A stretch of 40,706 bases of DNA from Lachnospiraceae bacterium (GTDB lineage: Bacteria > Bacillota > Clostridia > Lachnospirales > Lachnospiraceae): contig JAFXQR010000061.1 in NCBI GenBank assembly GCA_017526985.1, forward strand, positions 1-40,706. The letters run 5' to 3'. Below are positions 5,516 through 40,706 of this stretch, piece after piece; the stretch's first letter is position 1; the number at the start of each line of letters is the position of its first letter. The notes under the pieces are model-generated. The model saw only the letters and a program-made list of their open reading frames with translations. It made no database searches and was not told the origin of the DNA. The position numbers and the translations under genes were made by a program.

Positions 5516-7111
5516 ATGAAAAAGCGAGCACTTGCACTGGCAATGACATTGACATTGCTGGCGGCCTGCGGGCAGGAAGAAAGCACCCGCGGAAAGATGC
5601 CGGCAGCAGAGGAAAAAGAAGAGCAGGAGACGGATGGAACCGTTGCGGAGACAACACCGGAAGCGGAGCCTACCGAAGAGGCAGTGCCGACGGAGGCAGC
5701 GGAAGAGAATCTTTGGCAGCCCTTATCCGACGCGGAACTGGCACATATTCAGGGCTATATGATCGATGCGGAGAACGGTTTTTTCCTGTCGGACTATTGC
5801 ACACCGGAAATGATCGACTGGAATGAAGTGTGCTACAATGGCGCGGGGATCGATCTGCCGATTTCGGACAAACTCTATGATGCGATCGAAGCGAAGGAAG
5901 AAGAGATCTATACGGATGTGACTGCCATCAGCAGCCAGGGCCTGAGAGAGTTTGTATTGCGGACGACCGGAACGGACTATGACATAGCACAGAATCCTTT
6001 GAACTGGCCTTATCTTGATGAGGAGGATGTTTATTATTCTCTGCACGGGGATACCAATTACCAGCCGATCGAACTGACAAAGGGCGAAGCGAACGGGGAT
6101 ATCTATCGTCTGTATTATGAACGATATGATTTCAATACCGATACTTACCGGGAATATGTGATGACGGCGCAGATCTCCGAAGATAATCAATGGATGTATC
6201 TGTCCAATCTGCCGTCGGATAAGCCTACGCAGGCAAGCCTTCTTTCGATGAGTTTTTATGCGGAAGAGGATAAGGCGGCAATGGATGGATATGCACCAAA
6301 GGATTATGTGGAGATTCCCGAGGAATTGTCTCCGGAACCCGAACCGTGGTATTGGGTGCTTTTATTTGCGCTGGAAGATGATACGCATATTGTGCTGCAC
6401 AGTGCGGACATCAGCACGGATATGGGTGAGGAGCTGGTGTGGAACAATATATTCCTGCCGGGGCAGGAACTGTATCAGACGGTACTGGATCGTGGGGAAT
6501 CCGTTGCGGTACGGGTGAATCTGCCGTGGAATCCGCGTATTCATTTAAGCGTGGACAGCGGAAACTTTTATGGGGAATATTTCTTCGGACAGGATAATTA
6601 TCGGCATCTGTGGACGGAGGAACGGCCGATGCCGGATATGCTGGTGATCGGACATGATTTTGTGGCTGAGGGACGCGGACCAAAGCCGCAGAATAACGTT
6701 CAGTTTTTCCGGATGATGGACGGGGACTGGATCTGGTTTGATCAAAACGGGGAGCCGGCAGCTGTGCTGTCATATCAGTTCAATCCGGGGCAGCTGGTGA
6801 TCCGGACCGGGGAGAATTATTATGAACTGTGGGTGAATATGGAGCATATTCTTGTGCCGGACAGTGCAGTCGCAGACGGGATCAGTCTTTCCTGTTATGA
6901 TACGGAGACCTTATCACAGTTTCCGACGGACGATTATGATCCGGATGCCCTGGGAGACTATCTGGTGGAAGTCTCTCATGCAAAGGGCCTGCAGACGATC
7001 ACACTGGTACAGGCCAATAACGGAGACGGGATCCTGTCTTACCTGATCCCCGGGGCAGATCATACAACAACATCGTTTACATTTACCAGATATATGGGTG
7101 TCAATGAATAA
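5516..7111 (+). CDS. Lipoprotein of unknown function
   Basis: 531 aa. A lipoprotein signal peptide with lipobox LAAC places the lipidated cysteine at residue 18. A Glu/Thr/Pro-rich, low-complexity linker (about 19-70) is followed by a mostly acidic, Tyr/Trp-rich extracellular region without a domain I recognise. AGGAGAG precedes the ATG. It starts 30 bases after the stop of the envelope fusion gene with no terminator between, so the two are probably cotranscribed and this protein may work at the outer membrane face with that system. Function unknown; it could be a binding or accessory protein. Confidence 0.75.
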   Translation: MKKRALALAMTLTLLAACGQEESTRGKMPAAEEKEEQETDGTVAETTPEAEPTEEAVPTEAAEENLWQPLSDAELAHIQGYMIDAENGFFLSDYCTPEMIDWNEVCYNGAGIDLPISDKLYDAIEAKEEEIYTDVTAISSQGLREFVLRTTGTDYDIAQNPLNWPYLDEEDVYYSLHGDTNYQPIELTKGEANGDIYRLYYERYDFNTDTYREYVMTAQISEDNQWMYLSNLPSDKPTQASLLSMSFYAEEDKAAMDGYAPKDYVEIPEELSPEPEPWYWVLLFALEDDTHIVLHSADISTDMGEELVWNNIFLPGQELYQTVLDRGESVAVRVNLPWNPRIHLSVDSGNFYGEYFFGQDNYRHLWTEERPMPDMLVIGHDFVAEGRGPKPQNNVQFFRMMDGDWIWFDQNGEPAAVLSYQFNPGQLVIRTGENYYELWVNMEHILVPDSAVADGISLSCYDTETLSQFPTDDYDPDALGDYLVEVSHAKGLQTITLVQANNGDGILSYLIPGADHTTTSFTFTRYMGVNE

Positions 7112-7127
7112 ACGGGAGGGCAAGAAA

Positions 7128-7754
7128 ATGGCAGAGAATGAGATCAGAGATAACAAAAATATGGAAGAGGCGGCAGATGCGGATGCCCTGAGCTGGGAGG
7201 AGATTCGCACAGAACATATCATCCGGAATGAGTGGATCGATTTTCGGCAGTGCGCCTTCCGCTTTCCGGACGGGACGGTCTTTGAGCCGTATTACAACTA
7301 CAGCCGCAAGGATTATGTGGTGATCGTGGCATCTGATACGGAAGGAAAGTATCTGTGTGTGCGCCAGTACCGGCAGGGCATCAAGCAGGTGACCACAGAG
7401 TTTCCGGCCGGCGGCATCGAGCGCAGGGACGGCAGGGAATACGGCGGTATGGACGGTCTGATGGCAGAGGACGGTATTGAAGCTGCCAAGCGTGAACTGC
7501 TGGAAGAGACCGGCTATGCCTCGGATGAGTGGGAACATTTACTCACGATCCCGTCCAATGCGACTATTGCGGATAACTACGCCCATCTGTATGTGGCGAA
7601 GAACTGCAAAAAAGTATCGGAACAAAATCTGGACAGTACGGAGTTTATCCGTGTGGTATCTCTGAGCGCCGACGAGATCGAGAAGCTCATCACGGAAGGC
7701 CGCTTTCAGCAGGCGGTACATGTGGCGGCTTGGTTTATGGCACAACGAAAATGA
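7128..7754 (+). CDS. NUDIX hydrolase, ADP-ribose pyrophosphatase-like
   Basis: 208 aa from the ATG at 7128, chosen because GGGAGG lies 8 bases before it; the in-frame GTG at 7098 lies inside the previous gene. The Nudix box is visible as E-AAKRELLEETGY at about residues 116-130, following a glycine-rich stretch, with the catalytic RELLEE core intact. The N-terminal strand (WIDFRQCAFRFPDG) and the PAGGIE motif are typical of ADP-ribose or nucleoside-diphosphate-sugar pyrophosphatases, which cleave NDP-X to NMP plus X-phosphate in the cytosol. The exact substrate cannot be read from the sequence. A terminator follows at 7784. Confidence 0.88.
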   Translation: MAENEIRDNKNMEEAADADALSWEEIRTEHIIRNEWIDFRQCAFRFPDGTVFEPYYNYSRKDYVVIVASDTEGKYLCVRQYRQGIKQVTTEFPAGGIERRDGREYGGMDGLMAEDGIEAAKRELLEETGYASDEWEHLLTIPSNATIADNYAHLYVAKNCKKVSEQNLDSTEFIRVVSLSADEIEKLITEGRFQQAVHVAAWFMAQRK

Positions 7755-35137: not shown

Positions 35138-35761
35138 TTAATCACGGTTCTCGAATGTCAGACGGTTGTGTTGGAGTGTGTCCGCAAGATAGAACATATC
35201 AAAAATGTCTTTGTATCGTGTCGAGTTCGGCCCAAATTTCAAAAGAGATCTGAGTTTTTCTGTGAACATTTGCTCTTTGGAGTTTATAAGTAGTGTTGCA
35301 CTACCATCATAGCAAGCAATATCGAAACAAAACTCGTCTTGCTCTATGTTGAGGTTTTTATGTACGCCAAGATCAATTTTACTCTCTATGGAATCGCCGA
35401 TATCATCCGAAATGATGACATAAACCCGTTTCCCATGATAATCTTGTTGCTTGAGTTCTGTTATTTTTCCGGTTTGACGAATATGAATGCCTTCAAGACA
35501 ATCAAGTTTCTTGATAAATTGTCGGATTGAATCATCACTAAGAGAATATCGGATAAAATCGATATCCATATCCTGCGTTGCTCTTCGCGCATCGTTGGAA
35601 ATGCTTCGCATCACAACGCCGCCTTTTATGGTAACATTCCTATTAAGAGAACTTTCTGAAATTGCTTTAAGGACAACATCCTGACATACCTTTGCTTCAG
35701 CATTGTCGTCAACATATCCATCTGAATTAGCCTTTCGGATCATTTCTTTTATCGTTGTCAA
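35138..35761 (-). CDS. abiEii: AbiEii-type nucleotidyltransferase toxin, possibly 3'-truncated
   Basis: 207 aa. The N-terminal nucleotidyltransferase core is evident: IKGGVVMRSI with Gly47-Gly48, then RRATQDMDIDF with acidic residues Asp64, Asp66 and Asp68. A C-terminal helical part contains KEQMFTEKLRSLL and YKDIFDMFYLA. AbiEii is the toxin of the AbiE type IV toxin-antitoxin and phage-abortive-infection systems. The TTG start at 35761 is supported by GGAGGT nine bases upstream, inside the antitoxin gene; the next ATG is at residue 7. The protein is shorter than most AbiEii proteins I recall, and its stop coincides with a composition change, so the C-terminus may be missing. Confidence 0.85.
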   Translation of the reverse strand: MTTIKEMIRKANSDGYVDDNAEAKVCQDVVLKAISESSLNRNVTIKGGVVMRSISNDARRATQDMDIDFIRYSLSDDSIRQFIKKLDCLEGIHIRQTGKITELKQQDYHGKRVYVIISDDIGDSIESKIDLGVHKNLNIEQDEFCFDIACYDGSATLLINSKEQMFTEKLRSLLKFGPNSTRYKDIFDMFYLADTLQHNRLTFENRD

Positions 35762-35763
35762 TT

Positions 35764-36306
35764 TTAAAATACCTCCATTTCAAGTGCGTCACTAATCATT
35801 TTGCTTCGCGGAAAGGTCTCCGCATAGTCCTGTATACGTTCAATATCAAGATCATAGATCAGATTCCTGTAATTTCCGATGATCTCCTTGTAATAGTCAA
35901 AAGGGAATTTATTCTTAAACCGTAGAAGTTCTATCAGCATTCTTTCTTTATCATAAATCCTGATAGTCGCGTCTCTTCGTTCTATGGTTGTAACACCAAT
36001 GTTTAGTAAATCGGAAAGAATGTAGTACTGATGGACACGGCTATCTTTAATGTAAATAGCGTGCTTGTCAGTTGCGAGATGGAATTCATCCGGAATGACA
36101 TCTGTAAGACCATGATAATAGAAAGCACTGTCCAGGGTAATAATAGCTTTAGGGTATTTGAATGCAATTATAGCCAATGTTGAAACATCGGGAATATCAG
36201 AATAGACGCCTTTTTCTAGTTGATATAGATTTCCTGCAGATATTTGTTTTTTAATTTGATAATCAGATTGCCATTTATGAAGGCAATCAGGATATGAATA
36301 TAGCAT
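35764..36306 (-). CDS. abiEi: AbiEi-type antitoxin and transcriptional repressor
   Basis: 180 aa. An N-terminal winged-helix-like segment (QIKKQISAGNLYQLEKGVYSD) is followed by the AbiEi C-terminal region (ALDSAFYYHGLTD-type motif, here ITLDSAFYYHGLTDVIPDEFH, and RIYDKERMLIELLRFKNKF). AbiEi neutralises the toxin and, in studied systems, binds two inverted repeats in its own promoter. Two matching 27-bp sites lie upstream here. GGAG precedes the ATG at about three bases. It overlaps the toxin gene's ribosome site, so both are translated from one message with the antitoxin first. Confidence 0.88.
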   Translation of the reverse strand: MLYSYPDCLHKWQSDYQIKKQISAGNLYQLEKGVYSDIPDVSTLAIIAFKYPKAIITLDSAFYYHGLTDVIPDEFHLATDKHAIYIKDSRVHQYYILSDLLNIGVTTIERRDATIRIYDKERMLIELLRFKNKFPFDYYKEIIGNYRNLIYDLDIERIQDYAETFPRSKMISDALEMEVF

Positions 36307-36327
36307 GATACTCCAATTGCAGCAAAC

Positions 36328-36432
36328 ATAGGCTAATTGTATAATTAGTCCTATATTTACTATAAAGATTCTTGGTTATTGGTTAATAACAATATTACAC
36401 TTATTATAGGCTTATTGACAATCGCGGCCTAT
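36328..36432 (-). promoter_or_regulatory. Two 27-bp operators of the abiE operon
   Basis: Sites at 36328-36354 and 36406-36432 each begin with ATAGGC and end with CCTAT in inverted orientation, and each is exactly 27 bp. Their left arms are ATAGGCTAATTG and ATAGGCTTATTG (11 of 12 identical). The second is embedded in a longer perfect repeat, ACTTATTATAGGC (36399-36411) with its complement at 36427-36439. Both lie ahead of abiEi, matching the known two-site autorepression of AbiE systems. A minus-strand -10 (TATAGT, 36359-36364) lies between them; no good -35 is visible. Confidence 0.8.
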
Positions 36433-36518
36433 AATAAGTATAATTGTATACGGTGAAACTATTATTGTCAATATTTACATCGCAAACACAGAATCTATTT
36501 TGTTTTTTAGCATATACC

Positions 36519-36710
36519 TCATATTGTTTCCCTTTCCTGTTCAGTATCAGAAAATCTTCTACCATCTATGAAAGTCATCGGGGCAACAATACCATGCACC
36601 GTTACTCCAATGCTATTCCTTGCCTTCGGAGCAGTCTTTACCTTTCGGGCATATGCGTCTAACTCCGCGGTGGTTGTATCTACTGTTGAAGAATTATCAA
36701 TTTTCGGCAT
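36519..36710 (-). pseudogene. Short remnant related to the fragment at 40386
   Basis: 63 codons from the ATG at 36710, starting 15 bases after the stop of the ribbon-helix-helix gene and without a ribosome site. Residues 8-31 (VDTTTAELDAYARKVKTAPKA) align with VDEATREIDGYVRGVKENPKA of the fragment at 40386-40598. From memory this pattern resembles the C-terminal tail of Rpn/PD-(D/E)XK nuclease-family transposases, but no catalytic part is present and I cannot confirm it. The rest (GVTVHGIVAPMTFIDGRRF) is unrelated to the other copy. Alternatively it is a real small protein made with the repressor. Confidence 0.45.
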
Positions 36711-36725
36711 ATCGTGTAGCTTTTT

Positions 36726-36902
36726 TCAATGATTTCGTCGTGTTTTCTTTGTGCCAGTCTTTTCCTCATAATCCCGGATAGCTTGACGGATAAGAAAGAT
36801 TACCTCGCCGTTGATGGAACGCCCATCGTATTCGGCTAATTCTTTTAATTTTGTATGCGTATCACTGTCGATACGAAGCCCCAAATGTTTATCTTTTTCC
36901 AT
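36726..36902 (-). CDS. Ribbon-helix-helix (Arc-type) DNA-binding protein
   Basis: 58 aa: a short strand (DKHLGLRIDSDT) is followed by two helices (HTKLKELAEYDGRSINGEVIFLIRQAIRDYEE). This is the Arc/CopG ribbon-helix-helix pattern with the G-S-N turn between the helices. AAAGGAG lies seven bases before the ATG (first base 36902). It is divergent from the serine recombinase, with 158 bp between, where TAAGTACA repeats provide likely binding sites. It is probably the repressor of itself and of the recombinase. It could also be the antitoxin of a lost toxin. Confidence 0.8.
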   Translation of the reverse strand: MEKDKHLGLRIDSDTHTKLKELAEYDGRSINGEVIFLIRQAIRDYEEKTGTKKTRRNH

Positions 36903-36926
36903 AGGTATTCTCCTTTGGTCTCAAAT

Positions 36927-36987
36927 TAAGTACACTTTAAGACTTGAAGATGCTATAATGTTCAAAATGTACTTAAAATAAGTACAT
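36927..36987. promoter_or_regulatory. Operator/promoter region between repressor and recombinase
   Basis: ATGTACTTA (36967-36975) and TAAGTACAT (36979-36987) form a perfect 9-bp dyad with a three-base centre. A third half-site, TAAGTACA, lies at 36927-36934. Between them is an extended -10 (TGC-TATAAT, hexamer 36954-36959) facing the recombinase. A repressor bound to these sites would control both divergent genes. Confidence 0.65.
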
Positions 36988-37015
36988 AAGATTTTTGGAA
37001 AGGATGTGATATTTC

Positions 37016-37044
37016 GTTTCTTGTTGCCTACTTTAAGTAAAAAC
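37016..37044 (+). repeat. Candidate recombinase site R1
   Basis: The first 19 bases, GTTTCTTGTTGCCTACTTT, match site R3 (37762) at 17 positions. The ends GTTTC and AAAAC make it an imperfect dyad of 29 bp, the size of a serine-recombinase crossover site. It lies just before the recombinase ribosome site. A diverged inverted copy (R2; TTCGTTTC and GTCTACT on the minus strand) lies at 37675-37696, right at the recombinase stop. Confidence 0.5.
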
Positions 37045-37060
37045 ATAAAGGAGGCATCAT

Positions 37061-37678
37061 ATGGAAAAATACGGTTACATCAGGGTATCGTCCAAAGATC
37101 AGAATCCGGAACGGCAGTACGAGGCTTTGATACGATACGGCATCGATAGGGAGAACATATTTGTAGATTACTTGTCCGGAAAGGATTTTAATCGGCCTCA
37201 GTACAAACGAATGCTGAAAAAGGCAAAAGAGGGCGATGTACTTGTCGTTAAGAGTATTGATCGATTAGGACGGAATTATGAAGAAATCATTGAGCAGTGG
37301 CGTTTGATTTGTCGGAAGAAAAAGATTGATATTGAGGTGCTCGATTTTCCGTTGTTGAACACCAATCAGACCAGAGACGGATTGACCGGGGTGTTTATAT
37401 CGGATATCACTTTACAGATTATGGCATATCTTGCCCAAACGGAGCGTGAAATGATACGGCAGCGTCAAGCGGAAGGCATAGCAATCGCAAAAGCAAAAGG
37501 GATTCGATTTGGAGCGGTTAAAAAGGAAGTGCCGGTATCGTTTCTTGAAAACTATCAATTATGGAAAAGTGGAAAAATATCATCGCGGGAAGCTGCAAAA
37601 CGATCGGGAATGAGTCATACGACTTTTTATCGACGATGTAAAGAATATGAAAATATTTGTGAAAATTGTACCAAATAG
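37061..37678 (+). CDS. Small serine recombinase (resolvase/invertase family)
   Basis: 205 aa. The catalytic domain opens with YGYIRVSSKDQNPERQ (nucleophile Ser10, Arg8) and contains VVKSIDRLGRNYEEI, with the conserved Arg residues, and AQTEREMIRQRQAEGIAIAKAKG, the E-helix. A short helix-turn-helix ends it (WKSGKISSREAAKRSGMSHTTFYRRCKEY). Length and layout match resolvases and DNA invertases rather than large phage integrases. It would cut and rejoin DNA at short dyad sites; related repeats lie directly on both sides of the gene. AAAGGAGG precedes the ATG. It is probably repressed by the divergent ribbon-helix-helix protein. Confidence 0.94.
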   Translation: MEKYGYIRVSSKDQNPERQYEALIRYGIDRENIFVDYLSGKDFNRPQYKRMLKKAKEGDVLVVKSIDRLGRNYEEIIEQWRLICRKKKIDIEVLDFPLLNTNQTRDGLTGVFISDITLQIMAYLAQTEREMIRQRQAEGIAIAKAKGIRFGAVKKEVPVSFLENYQLWKSGKISSREAAKRSGMSHTTFYRRCKEYENICENCTK

Positions 37679-37761
37679 TAGACTTTTTGAAACGAATTTG
37701 ATACAATTTAACTATAAAATTTGTATAAGGGAAAAATTTTCAAAGATTCAAAAAATCAGAT

Positions 37762-37787
37762 GTTTCCTGTTGTCTACTTTGCGAAAC
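37762..37787 (+). repeat. Candidate recombinase site R3
   Basis: GTTTCCTGTTGTCTACTTT followed by GCGAAAC: a 26-bp element with GTTTC/GAAAC ends, in direct orientation to R1 746 bases away. It lies between the recombinase and the cyclase-like gene, close to where that gene's promoter should be. Confidence 0.5.
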
Positions 37788-37841
37788 AATGTAAAAGGAT
37801 TGGCCTAAATTATAATTTTCTTGAGGAGGAGAGCTAAGAGT

Positions 37842-38588
37842 ATGGACAAAAATCAAGAGATATACAAGGAATTGATAAATGCATGTTACGAAGATTATGC
37901 TGTTTGTTTTGCTGATATTTTAGGAACCAAAGAATTATTGATTCAATCGAAAACTCCTTACGATGCGGGGTTTCCTGAAGCTATACTCAATGCTTTAGCA
38001 AACCAAGCGAACAGTATTGAAAAAATAAAGGTTGTACAGATATCAGACTGTATGTACATAATAACAAAAATAGAAAATATAGATGAAATGATTCGTTTTT
38101 TGGGATGTCTTATTTTGCAGTTATTTAATAGTAGTGAGCAAAGAATAAATTATACCGGTTCGAATCCTATAAATAATTGTGATATGCCAATATTTATGTT
38201 GCGTGGTGGAATAACGCGAGGGAAAGCAGTTTTTCTTAATGAGCAGAAAAATATTATAGGACCTGCTTTATGTAGAGCCTATGAAATTGAATGCCAAGAG
38301 GCAATTAAACCAAGAATTGTTTTGGATGGTAATATAATAGAGATATTTAGAAACCGAGAAGATATTTTCTCGATAGACGAAGATGGCAAATATTACTTTG
38401 ATTTTCTGAAATATTGGACGAGTCGAAAAGAAAAAATCAATCTGGATTGGATGATTCCGATTTTAGAGAATAAAATAAATAAATGCATAGAAGAGGAAAA
38501 GAAAAAAGAAAATGAGAAAAATGTGATAATAAGCAAAAAAGACAAATTTGAGTGGATGATAAAATATATTAGAGATAGAGTTAATTAA
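37842..38588 (+). CDS. Class III nucleotide-cyclase-like protein
   Basis: 248 aa from the ATG at 37842; a TTG at 37821 overlaps the AGGAGG ribosome site (37825-37830). The sequence follows the class III adenylyl/guanylyl cyclase fold: FADILG with Asp25, QISDCMYII with Asp69 (the two metal-binding Asp), RGGITRGKAVF (121-131), then IIGPALCRAYEIECQEAIKPRIV (138-160), which corresponds to the usual G-x-x-V-N-x-A-x-R block. The transition-state Asn and Arg of canonical cyclases appear replaced (Cys144, Glu148). The Lys/Glu-rich C-terminus looks coiled. The setting resembles Pycsar-type anti-phage cyclases, but this is inference; it could also be a non-catalytic relative. AT-rich, unlike the core genes. 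Confidence 0.6.
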   Translation: MDKNQEIYKELINACYEDYAVCFADILGTKELLIQSKTPYDAGFPEAILNALANQANSIEKIKVVQISDCMYIITKIENIDEMIRFLGCLILQLFNSSEQRINYTGSNPINNCDMPIFMLRGGITRGKAVFLNEQKNIIGPALCRAYEIECQEAIKPRIVLDGNIIEIFRNREDIFSIDEDGKYYFDFLKYWTSRKEKINLDWMIPILENKINKCIEEEKKKENEKNVIISKKDKFEWMIKYIRDRVN

Positions 38589-38667
38589 AACTATATCTAA
38601 GATGATAATAATGATAGGCCACAAGGTACAACATATGGATAAGTCAAATAGGTAGGGAGGTATTGAT

Positions 38668-40020
38668 ATGGGATTATTAGGTGGTTTGTTGAATGCGGCT
38701 TCTGAGTTTGCTAAAAATACAGCCGAATACTATGAGAGTGAGCAAAAGAAAAACGCATTGATGGATGCTTCTGCTGTACCTGTTGCCGAAATACACAAGC
38801 GTTTAAAAAATGCTGGATTATCACTTGTTCCTGAGAATGAGGTTGAAGAATGGCGATATAATTGTATTACGGGAAATAAGGAATACTTCGAAGAAAACAC
38901 GGATTATAAATATTATATAGATGAATATGGGATGAATCCTATAATGTATCAGGTGCTTGGGAAAGAAATTTGGCATTTTAATACATCATATAATTATGCT
39001 AATAAAAATATATGGGGACATAGGGAGGGGGATATTAGGCTGATTTCAAGAAATCGCTATTATGAAGAGTCGTATCATAATTTAAACATAAAATATGGAG
39101 AAAAGTTCAAAAGACTTCAAATATCATATCTTAGGAATCTTGCAGAAGAAGATCCTCAGTTCAAAAAAGTATATTTAGAAATTAGAGAAAAAGATATATG
39201 CACAGAATTAATGCGTAAGGAGGGGATTCTTCGAATAAAAGCAAGGACTCAAGCTGAATTATTGGAGAAAGATGAGTTTGAAAATGATAAAGAATATGAA
39301 GAGAGAAAAAGAAATTATTATGCAAATTTTCTCGAGGAGAATGATGCTATAACGACGGATGCTGATTATATATATGAAGTAAAAGAAGTGGCGAGGAAAC
39401 GCGCAGAAGATGATTATAATGCGTTTATGAAGACAGAAAAAACAAAACTGTCGTTATTGGACGAGAAAAAATTGACTTTGCTTCATATGTATATAGCTCC
39501 ACCAATTGCATGGAAATTTAAAAGATATGATGCTAATGAAGAAAAAATATATTTTATGGAATCTGAGGCAATATCATTTAGTCCTTTTGGATATTCTATA
39601 AACCGTGAGATAGCAAGAGAAATAAAAAATAATCCCAAGAATGTGTGCTGGAATTACAAGTATTACAGTACAGATTATGATCCTTTGAAATTTCGTATAG
39701 AAATTGAAATAGTAGTTCCGGACGATAACACTATAGTTCCAAATAAAAAGGCCTCTATTGTTATAGAAAAAAATATATTTATAGATGATCAGGTAGTTTT
39801 ATATAATAAACTTTCCAAAATGTCATTATTTGAAGCTATTATAGAATGGCAATATTACTTAGAAAACCCTCAACCGTATGATTATGATATATATCACCGT
39901 AACATAACTGATCGATTGAAAGGAGCATCCCGAAAAGAATTAGAACAGTATTATAATAATAAAGAAATAATGTTTAAAATTAGAAATATTATTGAAAATT
40001 GCATTAATGGGAAAATGTGA
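38668..40020 (+). CDS. Unknown protein paired with the cyclase-like gene
   Basis: 450 aa; I recognise no family. It starts with a Gly/Leu-rich amphipathic helix (MGLLGGLLNAASEFAKN), and a charged, helical middle contains DEFENDKEYEERKRNY (from about residue 202). A more globular Tyr-rich C-terminal part follows (about 260-430, with strands such as FRIEIEIVVPDDN). There is no signal peptide, no clear membrane span and no TIR-like or nuclease motif. GGGAGG lies seven bases before the ATG. It follows the cyclase-like gene by 79 bases with no terminator, so they probably form one operon, and it is the natural candidate effector or partner. Very AT-rich, with ATA/AGA/TTA codons. Confidence 0.65.
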   Translation: MGLLGGLLNAASEFAKNTAEYYESEQKKNALMDASAVPVAEIHKRLKNAGLSLVPENEVEEWRYNCITGNKEYFEENTDYKYYIDEYGMNPIMYQVLGKEIWHFNTSYNYANKNIWGHREGDIRLISRNRYYEESYHNLNIKYGEKFKRLQISYLRNLAEEDPQFKKVYLEIREKDICTELMRKEGILRIKARTQAELLEKDEFENDKEYEERKRNYYANFLEENDAITTDADYIYEVKEVARKRAEDDYNAFMKTEKTKLSLLDEKKLTLLHMYIAPPIAWKFKRYDANEEKIYFMESEAISFSPFGYSINREIAREIKNNPKNVCWNYKYYSTDYDPLKFRIEIEIVVPDDNTIVPNKKASIVIEKNIFIDDQVVLYNKLSKMSLFEAIIEWQYYLENPQPYDYDIYHRNITDRLKGASRKELEQYYNNKEIMFKIRNIIENCINGKM

Positions 40021-40385
40021 CCTCTTGAATTTCAAGTGTCAAAAAACGATAGGATACTTTATACAGAATTGTTGAGGATATTAATAAATATGTTAGGGGA
40101 TATGATTTTATTTCTCTAGAAATTGTTATACTCGTTGTGGTATGCTAGTTCCTTTTCTGTTAGCTCGAATTGGATATTTCGTTACTATGAGGAAAAATCA
40201 CGCATATGTTGTTATTATTGATTTAGTAGAGAATAATACAAGCAGTTTATATGGGCTACTAAGGTCAATGATATTCTAGAATTGTTGAAGGATACTGTGT
40301 ACCGTTACAATATAGACAAAGGGCGATAAAAACTGACAAGAACCGGCTCAAGGGGACGAAAGGAGGTAGTCAATCCGTACAAAAT
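40021..40385 (+). other. Intergenic, AT-rich stretch without a convincing gene
   Basis: It contains only short open stretches: 45 codons from the ATG at 40142 and 30 codons at 40237-40329, in different frames and without ribosome sites. These may be decayed coding sequence. AAAGGAGG at about 40360-40367 is a good ribosome site but lies 18 bases before the next ATG. From about 40330 the composition becomes richer in G+C. Confidence 0.5.
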
Positions 40386-40598
40386 ATGCTAAACTATCTG
40401 CAGGAGAGTAAAGCTACTTCGGTGGTAGATGAGGCCACCAGAGAGATAGACGGCTATGTTCGGGGCGTAAAGGAGAACCCGAAAGCAGAGGAGGCGTATA
40501 TTGTCAAACCGCACGCTGTGGGCGGAGGAAAATGCGGATTGTTTTCGGAGACTTTGCAGCTGAATCGCGGAATGATTTCGGCGGCCGCAGGATGCTAG
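40386..40598 (+). pseudogene. Gene fragment related to the one at 36519-36710
   Basis: 70 codons. The frame is also open for some distance upstream of the ATG, without a start. The opening (NMLNYLQESKATSVVDEATREIDGYV) resembles, from memory, the end of Rpn/PD-(D/E)XK nuclease-family transposases, and VDEATREIDGYVRGVKENPKA matches the minus-strand fragment at 36710. The conserved pattern breaks after EEAYI; the remaining roughly 30 residues are unlike it. The DNA from about 40500 to the window end (40706) is GC-richer, with small hairpins (such as GCGG/CCGC) and no other gene I can support. Confidence 0.4.
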
Positions 40599-40706
40599 CG
40601 GCGTAACCGCGGGTTCTCGCCGGTTTGTTTGAGCGGCAGATATTCTGCTGTTGAAACAAGGCCGTGAGAAGTGCCCACAGCCTTTGTACATTGATAGATG
40701 AATAAG

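Follow-up and report, generated by a model that had tools for sequence, protein, structure and literature searches.

The window analysed here, an entire contig of 40706 bases (C136) in a 220-contig Lachnospiraceae assembly, carries two adjacent genes, P0001 and P0002, that a preliminary description of this DNA had put forward as a candidate new two-gene defence system. P0001 is a protein of 248 amino acids (aa), encoded at 37842..38588 on the forward strand, and its class III adenylyl/guanylyl cyclase fold is well supported by fold and profile evidence. We tentatively read P0001, together with the mechanism proposed below, as a divergent class III nucleotidyl cyclase-fold enzyme that belongs to a widespread family borne by mobile elements and sometimes located beside defence genes. 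The two-gene defence system is not supported, as P0002 has no detectable relative and the neighbours of the P0001 family are varied, often being absent or belonging to conjugation and replication modules. The interest of the locus rests on the family, with its conserved metal site, its different set of charged residues and its carriage by mobile elements. As such, P0001 is a candidate, open to direct experiment, for a new enzyme that produces nucleotides in mobile-element/phage conflicts; should it make a signal, mononucleotide defence signalling would span a broader chemistry and more kinds of effector than is known.

The fold matches of P0001 to class III cyclases span residues 7-194 and agree with its profile matches, so that the cyclase fold supposed in the preliminary description held up when the fold check was run. 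A C-terminal helix at residues 223-247 of the P0001 model lies in a region barely tested by these fold matches. The profile-profile test took 14 of 18 class III loci, the other four being without the motif that the script required. Single-sequence searches of the PDB with P0001 gave nothing credible, as did a six-row profile, and the PDB matches of a 49-row profile, accepted up to an E value of 10, also included two unrelated designed proteins. P0001 is not recognised by any Pfam, NCBIfam or PADLOC model (no Pfam family matches even at E 1). The PHROG family phrog_23933 matches residues 16-247 with an E value of 5.1e-13; it carries no function, and the P0001 family occurs also on plasmids and chromosomes. 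Fold, motif order and two metal aspartates are common to P0001 and the class III cyclases (Rv1625c, CyaC, CyaB and the mammalian C2 domain; PF00211). In contrast to them, P0001 has extra C-terminal helices and no Pfam match, and its family has lost one catalytic residue pair while fixing other residues.

The two aspartates that bind metal by homology, Asp25 (codon 37914..37916, forward strand) and Asp69 (codon 38046..38048, forward strand), line up with the metal-Asp motifs of 1yk9, a class III cyclase, and the profile alignment places Asp25 in register with the DIxGF motif of these enzymes. Position 25 is aspartate in 76 of 77 family sequences and position 69 in all 77, which bears out the earlier observation that both residues are kept. 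Their spacing in P0001 is 44 residues and ranges from 43 to 89 among relatives if a single, perhaps misaligned, row at 19 is set aside. The earlier observation that the canonical catalytic Asn/Arg pair is missing was likewise correct. Because the 1yk9 stretch GDAVNVASRMES aligns with the family's GpAlvkAYelEs in the profile alignment, the canonical positions correspond to Cys144 and Glu148 of P0001. Across the 77 sequences, position 144 is N in eight and V or I in 60, position 148 is E in 35 and R in two, and none has both N and R. The absence of the pair is therefore a property of the whole family rather than decay of the P0001 copy. Other residues are almost fixed: R121 (76 of 77), E150 (73), P157 (75), R158 (74), K235 (76; codon 38544..38546, forward strand, in the C-terminal helix) and W238 (72). 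D25, D69, R121, E150, R158 and K235 occur all together in 71 of the 77, P0001 included. These counts follow removal of five duplicate loci and five matches shorter than 200 aa, and they are without the members in L030, L044, L075 and L108 (L numbers denote loci), which the gene caller lost. We infer from this conservation a possible catalytic part for R121, E150, R158 and K235.

The family is widespread, with members on chromosomes as well as on plasmids, conjugative elements and viral contigs, and it is apparently uncharacterised. With P0001 alone as query, only two of 194 genomes of relatives matched, and a nine-row profile matched 20 of 397 genomes of the host's family, the window's own genome being counted both times. 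Pattern scans yielded 50 loci in genomes of several phyla and nine on viral contigs, and 47 of these 59 loci supplied the 48 proteins of one working set (A5). A plasmid search with P0001 returned 20 records, all with coverage below 80% of the query, and a search of a phage collection gave no match. Relatives are only 19-28% identical to P0001, 29% being the best value in any of the alignments, and in the tree a long branch connects P0001 to L102, a grouping that the program flags as possibly false. Among the titles and abstract beginnings listed, none describes the family, a scope that leaves out many subscription papers and does not establish that the literature lacks it. Two members are predicted open reading frames (ORFs) of about 430 aa with an N-terminal extension of about 170-200 aa (L118:3065-4357 and L108:3380-4663). 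Two loci hold two members each, as a back-to-back tandem (L073:7200-8732) or as copies about 7 kilobases (kb) apart (L104:1097-9473).

P0002, of 450 aa, is encoded at 38668..40020 on the forward strand, and both ORFs are present where they had been described. P0001 starts at an ATG at 37842, preceded by the Shine-Dalgarno sequence GAGGAGG (37823-37829), and P0002 at an ATG at 38668, preceded by AGGGAGG (38654-38660). The operon suggested earlier is plausible in view of the common strand, a gap of 79 base pairs (bp) and the lack of any terminator-like site in 36300-40706, although promoter-like matches (27, against 20.7 with a standard deviation of 4.4 in shuffled sequence) are near the shuffled level and do not add to it. 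P0002 is matched by no Pfam, PADLOC, NCBIfam or PHROG model (no Pfam family at E 1), in keeping with the earlier statement that it has no known effector domain. Hydropathy gives it no transmembrane (TM) segment and Pfam no TIR or nucleotide-binding domain, and the TM or TIR partner noted earlier as missing is indeed not seen in the window. Credible relatives of P0002 were found neither in sets of 194, 391 and 348 genomes, which overlap, nor in genome contigs, viral contigs, plasmids and phages, where the contig scans detect close relatives only. P0002 also resembles none of the 1364 ORFs around other family members. Three weak matches (E 0.001-0.006) were rejected as chance because they cover 55-95 of its 450 residues in stretches with stops. 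The single-sequence model of P0002 is uninformative (predicted local distance difference test score 40.8) and of too low quality for a comparison with fold libraries. Since P0002 has no detectable relative, conservation of the pair cannot be shown; in the survey of gene pairs, the pair is missing from other genomes only because P0002 was found nowhere else at all. An effector role for P0002 is a guess from its position.

Considering the family as a whole, 45 of 80 members (six duplicate loci dropped) are flanked within 100 bp by a gene of 80 aa or more on their own strand, and the identities of these neighbours differ between loci. The neighbour scan comprised 95 of the 97 genes next to members, with two near-duplicates of L028 omitted, and two more L054 genes, and the matches listed are the first 25 of 156 PADLOC families and the first 25 of 117 Pfam families. 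At L054:7962-11295, a member is followed on the same strand, with gaps of a few bases, by a 221-aa protein, QatC and QatD. This arrangement might represent a Qat-like variant that includes a cyclase-fold protein; QatA was not recognised beside the member in searches that had no dedicated QatA model, and the window itself has no Qat genes. Other members lie beside MmeI/type IIG enzymes (L070 and L072, which count as one case because the members are near-identical), GmrSD (L106), or HNH and type I specificity proteins (L112). A neighbour in L029 has a weak AbiU2-type HEPN match below the Pfam cut-off, and a RES protein lies 287 bp from the member in L057. Given some defence genes among its neighbours, the family may have a part in conflicts. 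Mobile-element neighbours include repC (L011), ParA (L024) and a conjugation module around L102, and metabolic or ordinary ones include HisA (L064), a PPDK-like enzyme (L060), a thiaminase-like binding protein (L049) and an epimerase (L113).

Several candidate associations did not stand. A DpdF assignment beside L102 was rejected and its 573-aa protein not counted as defence because it reads as a DNA topoisomerase in the conjugation module; Topoisom_bac occurs once among the neighbour Pfam matches listed. The motif RNxx[AILVF]H, picked after seeing the data, occurs in seven of 49 close same-strand neighbours against eight of 770 other genes. The seven include a WYL protein and an MmeI enzyme, and one of the eight others was taken as part of a restriction locus; without these three the counts are 5/47 and 7/769 (p 3e-4). 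As the motif was chosen post hoc and not all five neighbours are shown to be HEPN proteins, an enrichment of HEPN genes near members is suggestive only. Two proteins with such a motif resemble each other: a 347-aa protein (RNSLAH) lies 35 bp upstream of a member in a genome of the window's own genus (L113:812-2793), and in L108 a 367-aa protein (RNTMAH; 6613-7713) is encoded downstream of the member, beyond two larger genes. A SIR2-like reading of the L067 neighbour was also set aside, since its motifs were seen by eye only and Pfam gives just DUF7755 (E 0.0098).

Class III cyclases work as head-to-tail dimers, and in the known enzymes the Asn/Arg residues stabilise the transition state. We hypothesize that P0001 would form a similar head-to-tail dimer and bind a nucleoside triphosphate (NTP) and two metals at D25/D69, and that R121, E150 and R158, perhaps with K235, would take over the work of the lost Asn/Arg pair. 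P0001, which is probably active as an enzyme, would then make a nucleotide product or perform related NTP chemistry that serves the mobile element or the host in conflicts. It is possible, though doubtful, that P0002 is a responder to this product, a step for which adjacency is the sole evidence. Certain points weigh against such an enzyme of conflicts. The residues that stabilise the transition state are gone, and the family may carry out another reaction, or none; the cyclase core does not include K235; the neighbours of many members are ordinary or of mobile-element type (HisA, PPDK-like, ParA); and we do not claim an enrichment of defence genes, there being no background rate for PADLOC matches. 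Moreover, 35 of the 80 members lack a neighbour of this size (80 aa or more) within 100 bp on their own strand, which also speaks for P0001 as a stand-alone mobile-element accessory, for example a regulator or a counter-defence protein acting by synthesis, binding or depletion of nucleotides, with P0002 as unrelated cargo. The location of members in the conjugation module, by repC and ParA and on viral contigs points the same way, as does the dissimilarity of P0002 to every ORF near other members. However, P0001 and P0002 are adjacent on one strand, and some relatives stand in tight operons with defence genes, as in L054; we regard the accessory role as possible, but with less confidence than the divergent enzyme. 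The complete loss of the Asn/Arg pair would also suit a pseudo-cyclase without catalysis whose nucleotide binding serves sensing or scaffolding. This is unlikely in our judgement, because the metal site should decay in a family that is no longer active, whereas 71 of 77 sequences retain the full set of two metal aspartates and four further charged residues despite low identity to P0001.

PADLOC holds Pycsar models, and the likeness of P0001 to Pycsar cyclases was weighed on PADLOC model names and on reported PycC spacing rather than on PycC sequences. P0001 shares the class III fold and metal aspartates with PycC and lies beside a gene without known function, as would a true Pycsar cyclase making cyclic UMP or cyclic CMP for P0002 as a new effector. 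Its aspartate spacing of 44 is also reported for EaPycC and AnPycC, the aspartate pairs given for two PycC enzymes being D102/D146 and D62/D106 (PMC11224242). On the other hand, the 49 members searched match six PADLOC families at E values up to 1, none of them bearing a Pycsar-like name, and P0002 offers no TM segment, TIR domain or nucleotide-binding domain; we consider a Pycsar identity quite improbable. No PycC entry by name was among the matches listed in the structure and profile searches, which excludes nothing. An ordinary housekeeping role in the host, to which the metabolic neighbours of some members (HisA, the PPDK-like enzyme, the epimerase) might point, is the least probable explanation, given the patchy presence in 20 of 397 genomes of the host's family, the members on plasmids and viral contigs, and the differing base composition of the island in the window. 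Extending the divergent-enzyme reading, P0001-like proteins could be signalling enzymes with a rewired active site (R121, E150, R158 and K235 in place of Asn/Arg) that form an exchangeable module of conflict loci, feeding HEPN-like, possible SIR2-like, Qat-like and restriction effectors, with P0002 as a new type. We consider this wider scheme rather unlikely.

The surroundings of the two genes match the AT-rich island beside an AbiE system and a recombinase that had been described. The guanine plus cytosine content drops from about 0.50 to 0.29-0.39 over 35-40 kb, and the AT-rich stretch extends from about 35 kb to 40.3 kb. On the reverse strand, it holds an AbiEii-type toxin gene (35138..35761; PADLOC AbiEii, E 2.6e-104), an AbiEi-type antitoxin gene (35764..36306; PADLOC AbiEi, E 7e-83) and a gene for a ribbon-helix-helix (Arc-like) protein (36726..36902; Pfam PF03869, E 2e-5, above its cut-off). 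The AbiEii ORF (207 aa, TTG start) covers positions 2-200 of the 265-position PADLOC model, and its C-terminal end may be missing. A small serine recombinase of the resolvase family (37061..37678; Pfam PF00239, E 1.7e-31) is encoded on the forward strand. In L153 and L154, from two related genomes in which the flanking acyltransferase gene is retained, other genes lie beside it, and neither P0001 nor P0002 has a counterpart there. Repeats bounding the AT-rich island were sought, and only short, chance-like ones were seen. At the right end of the contig (40350-40706), pieces of sequence recur on C187, C138, C140 and C25 of the same genome with 83-100% identity, and they differ from place to place, as in a mosaic dispersed repeat.
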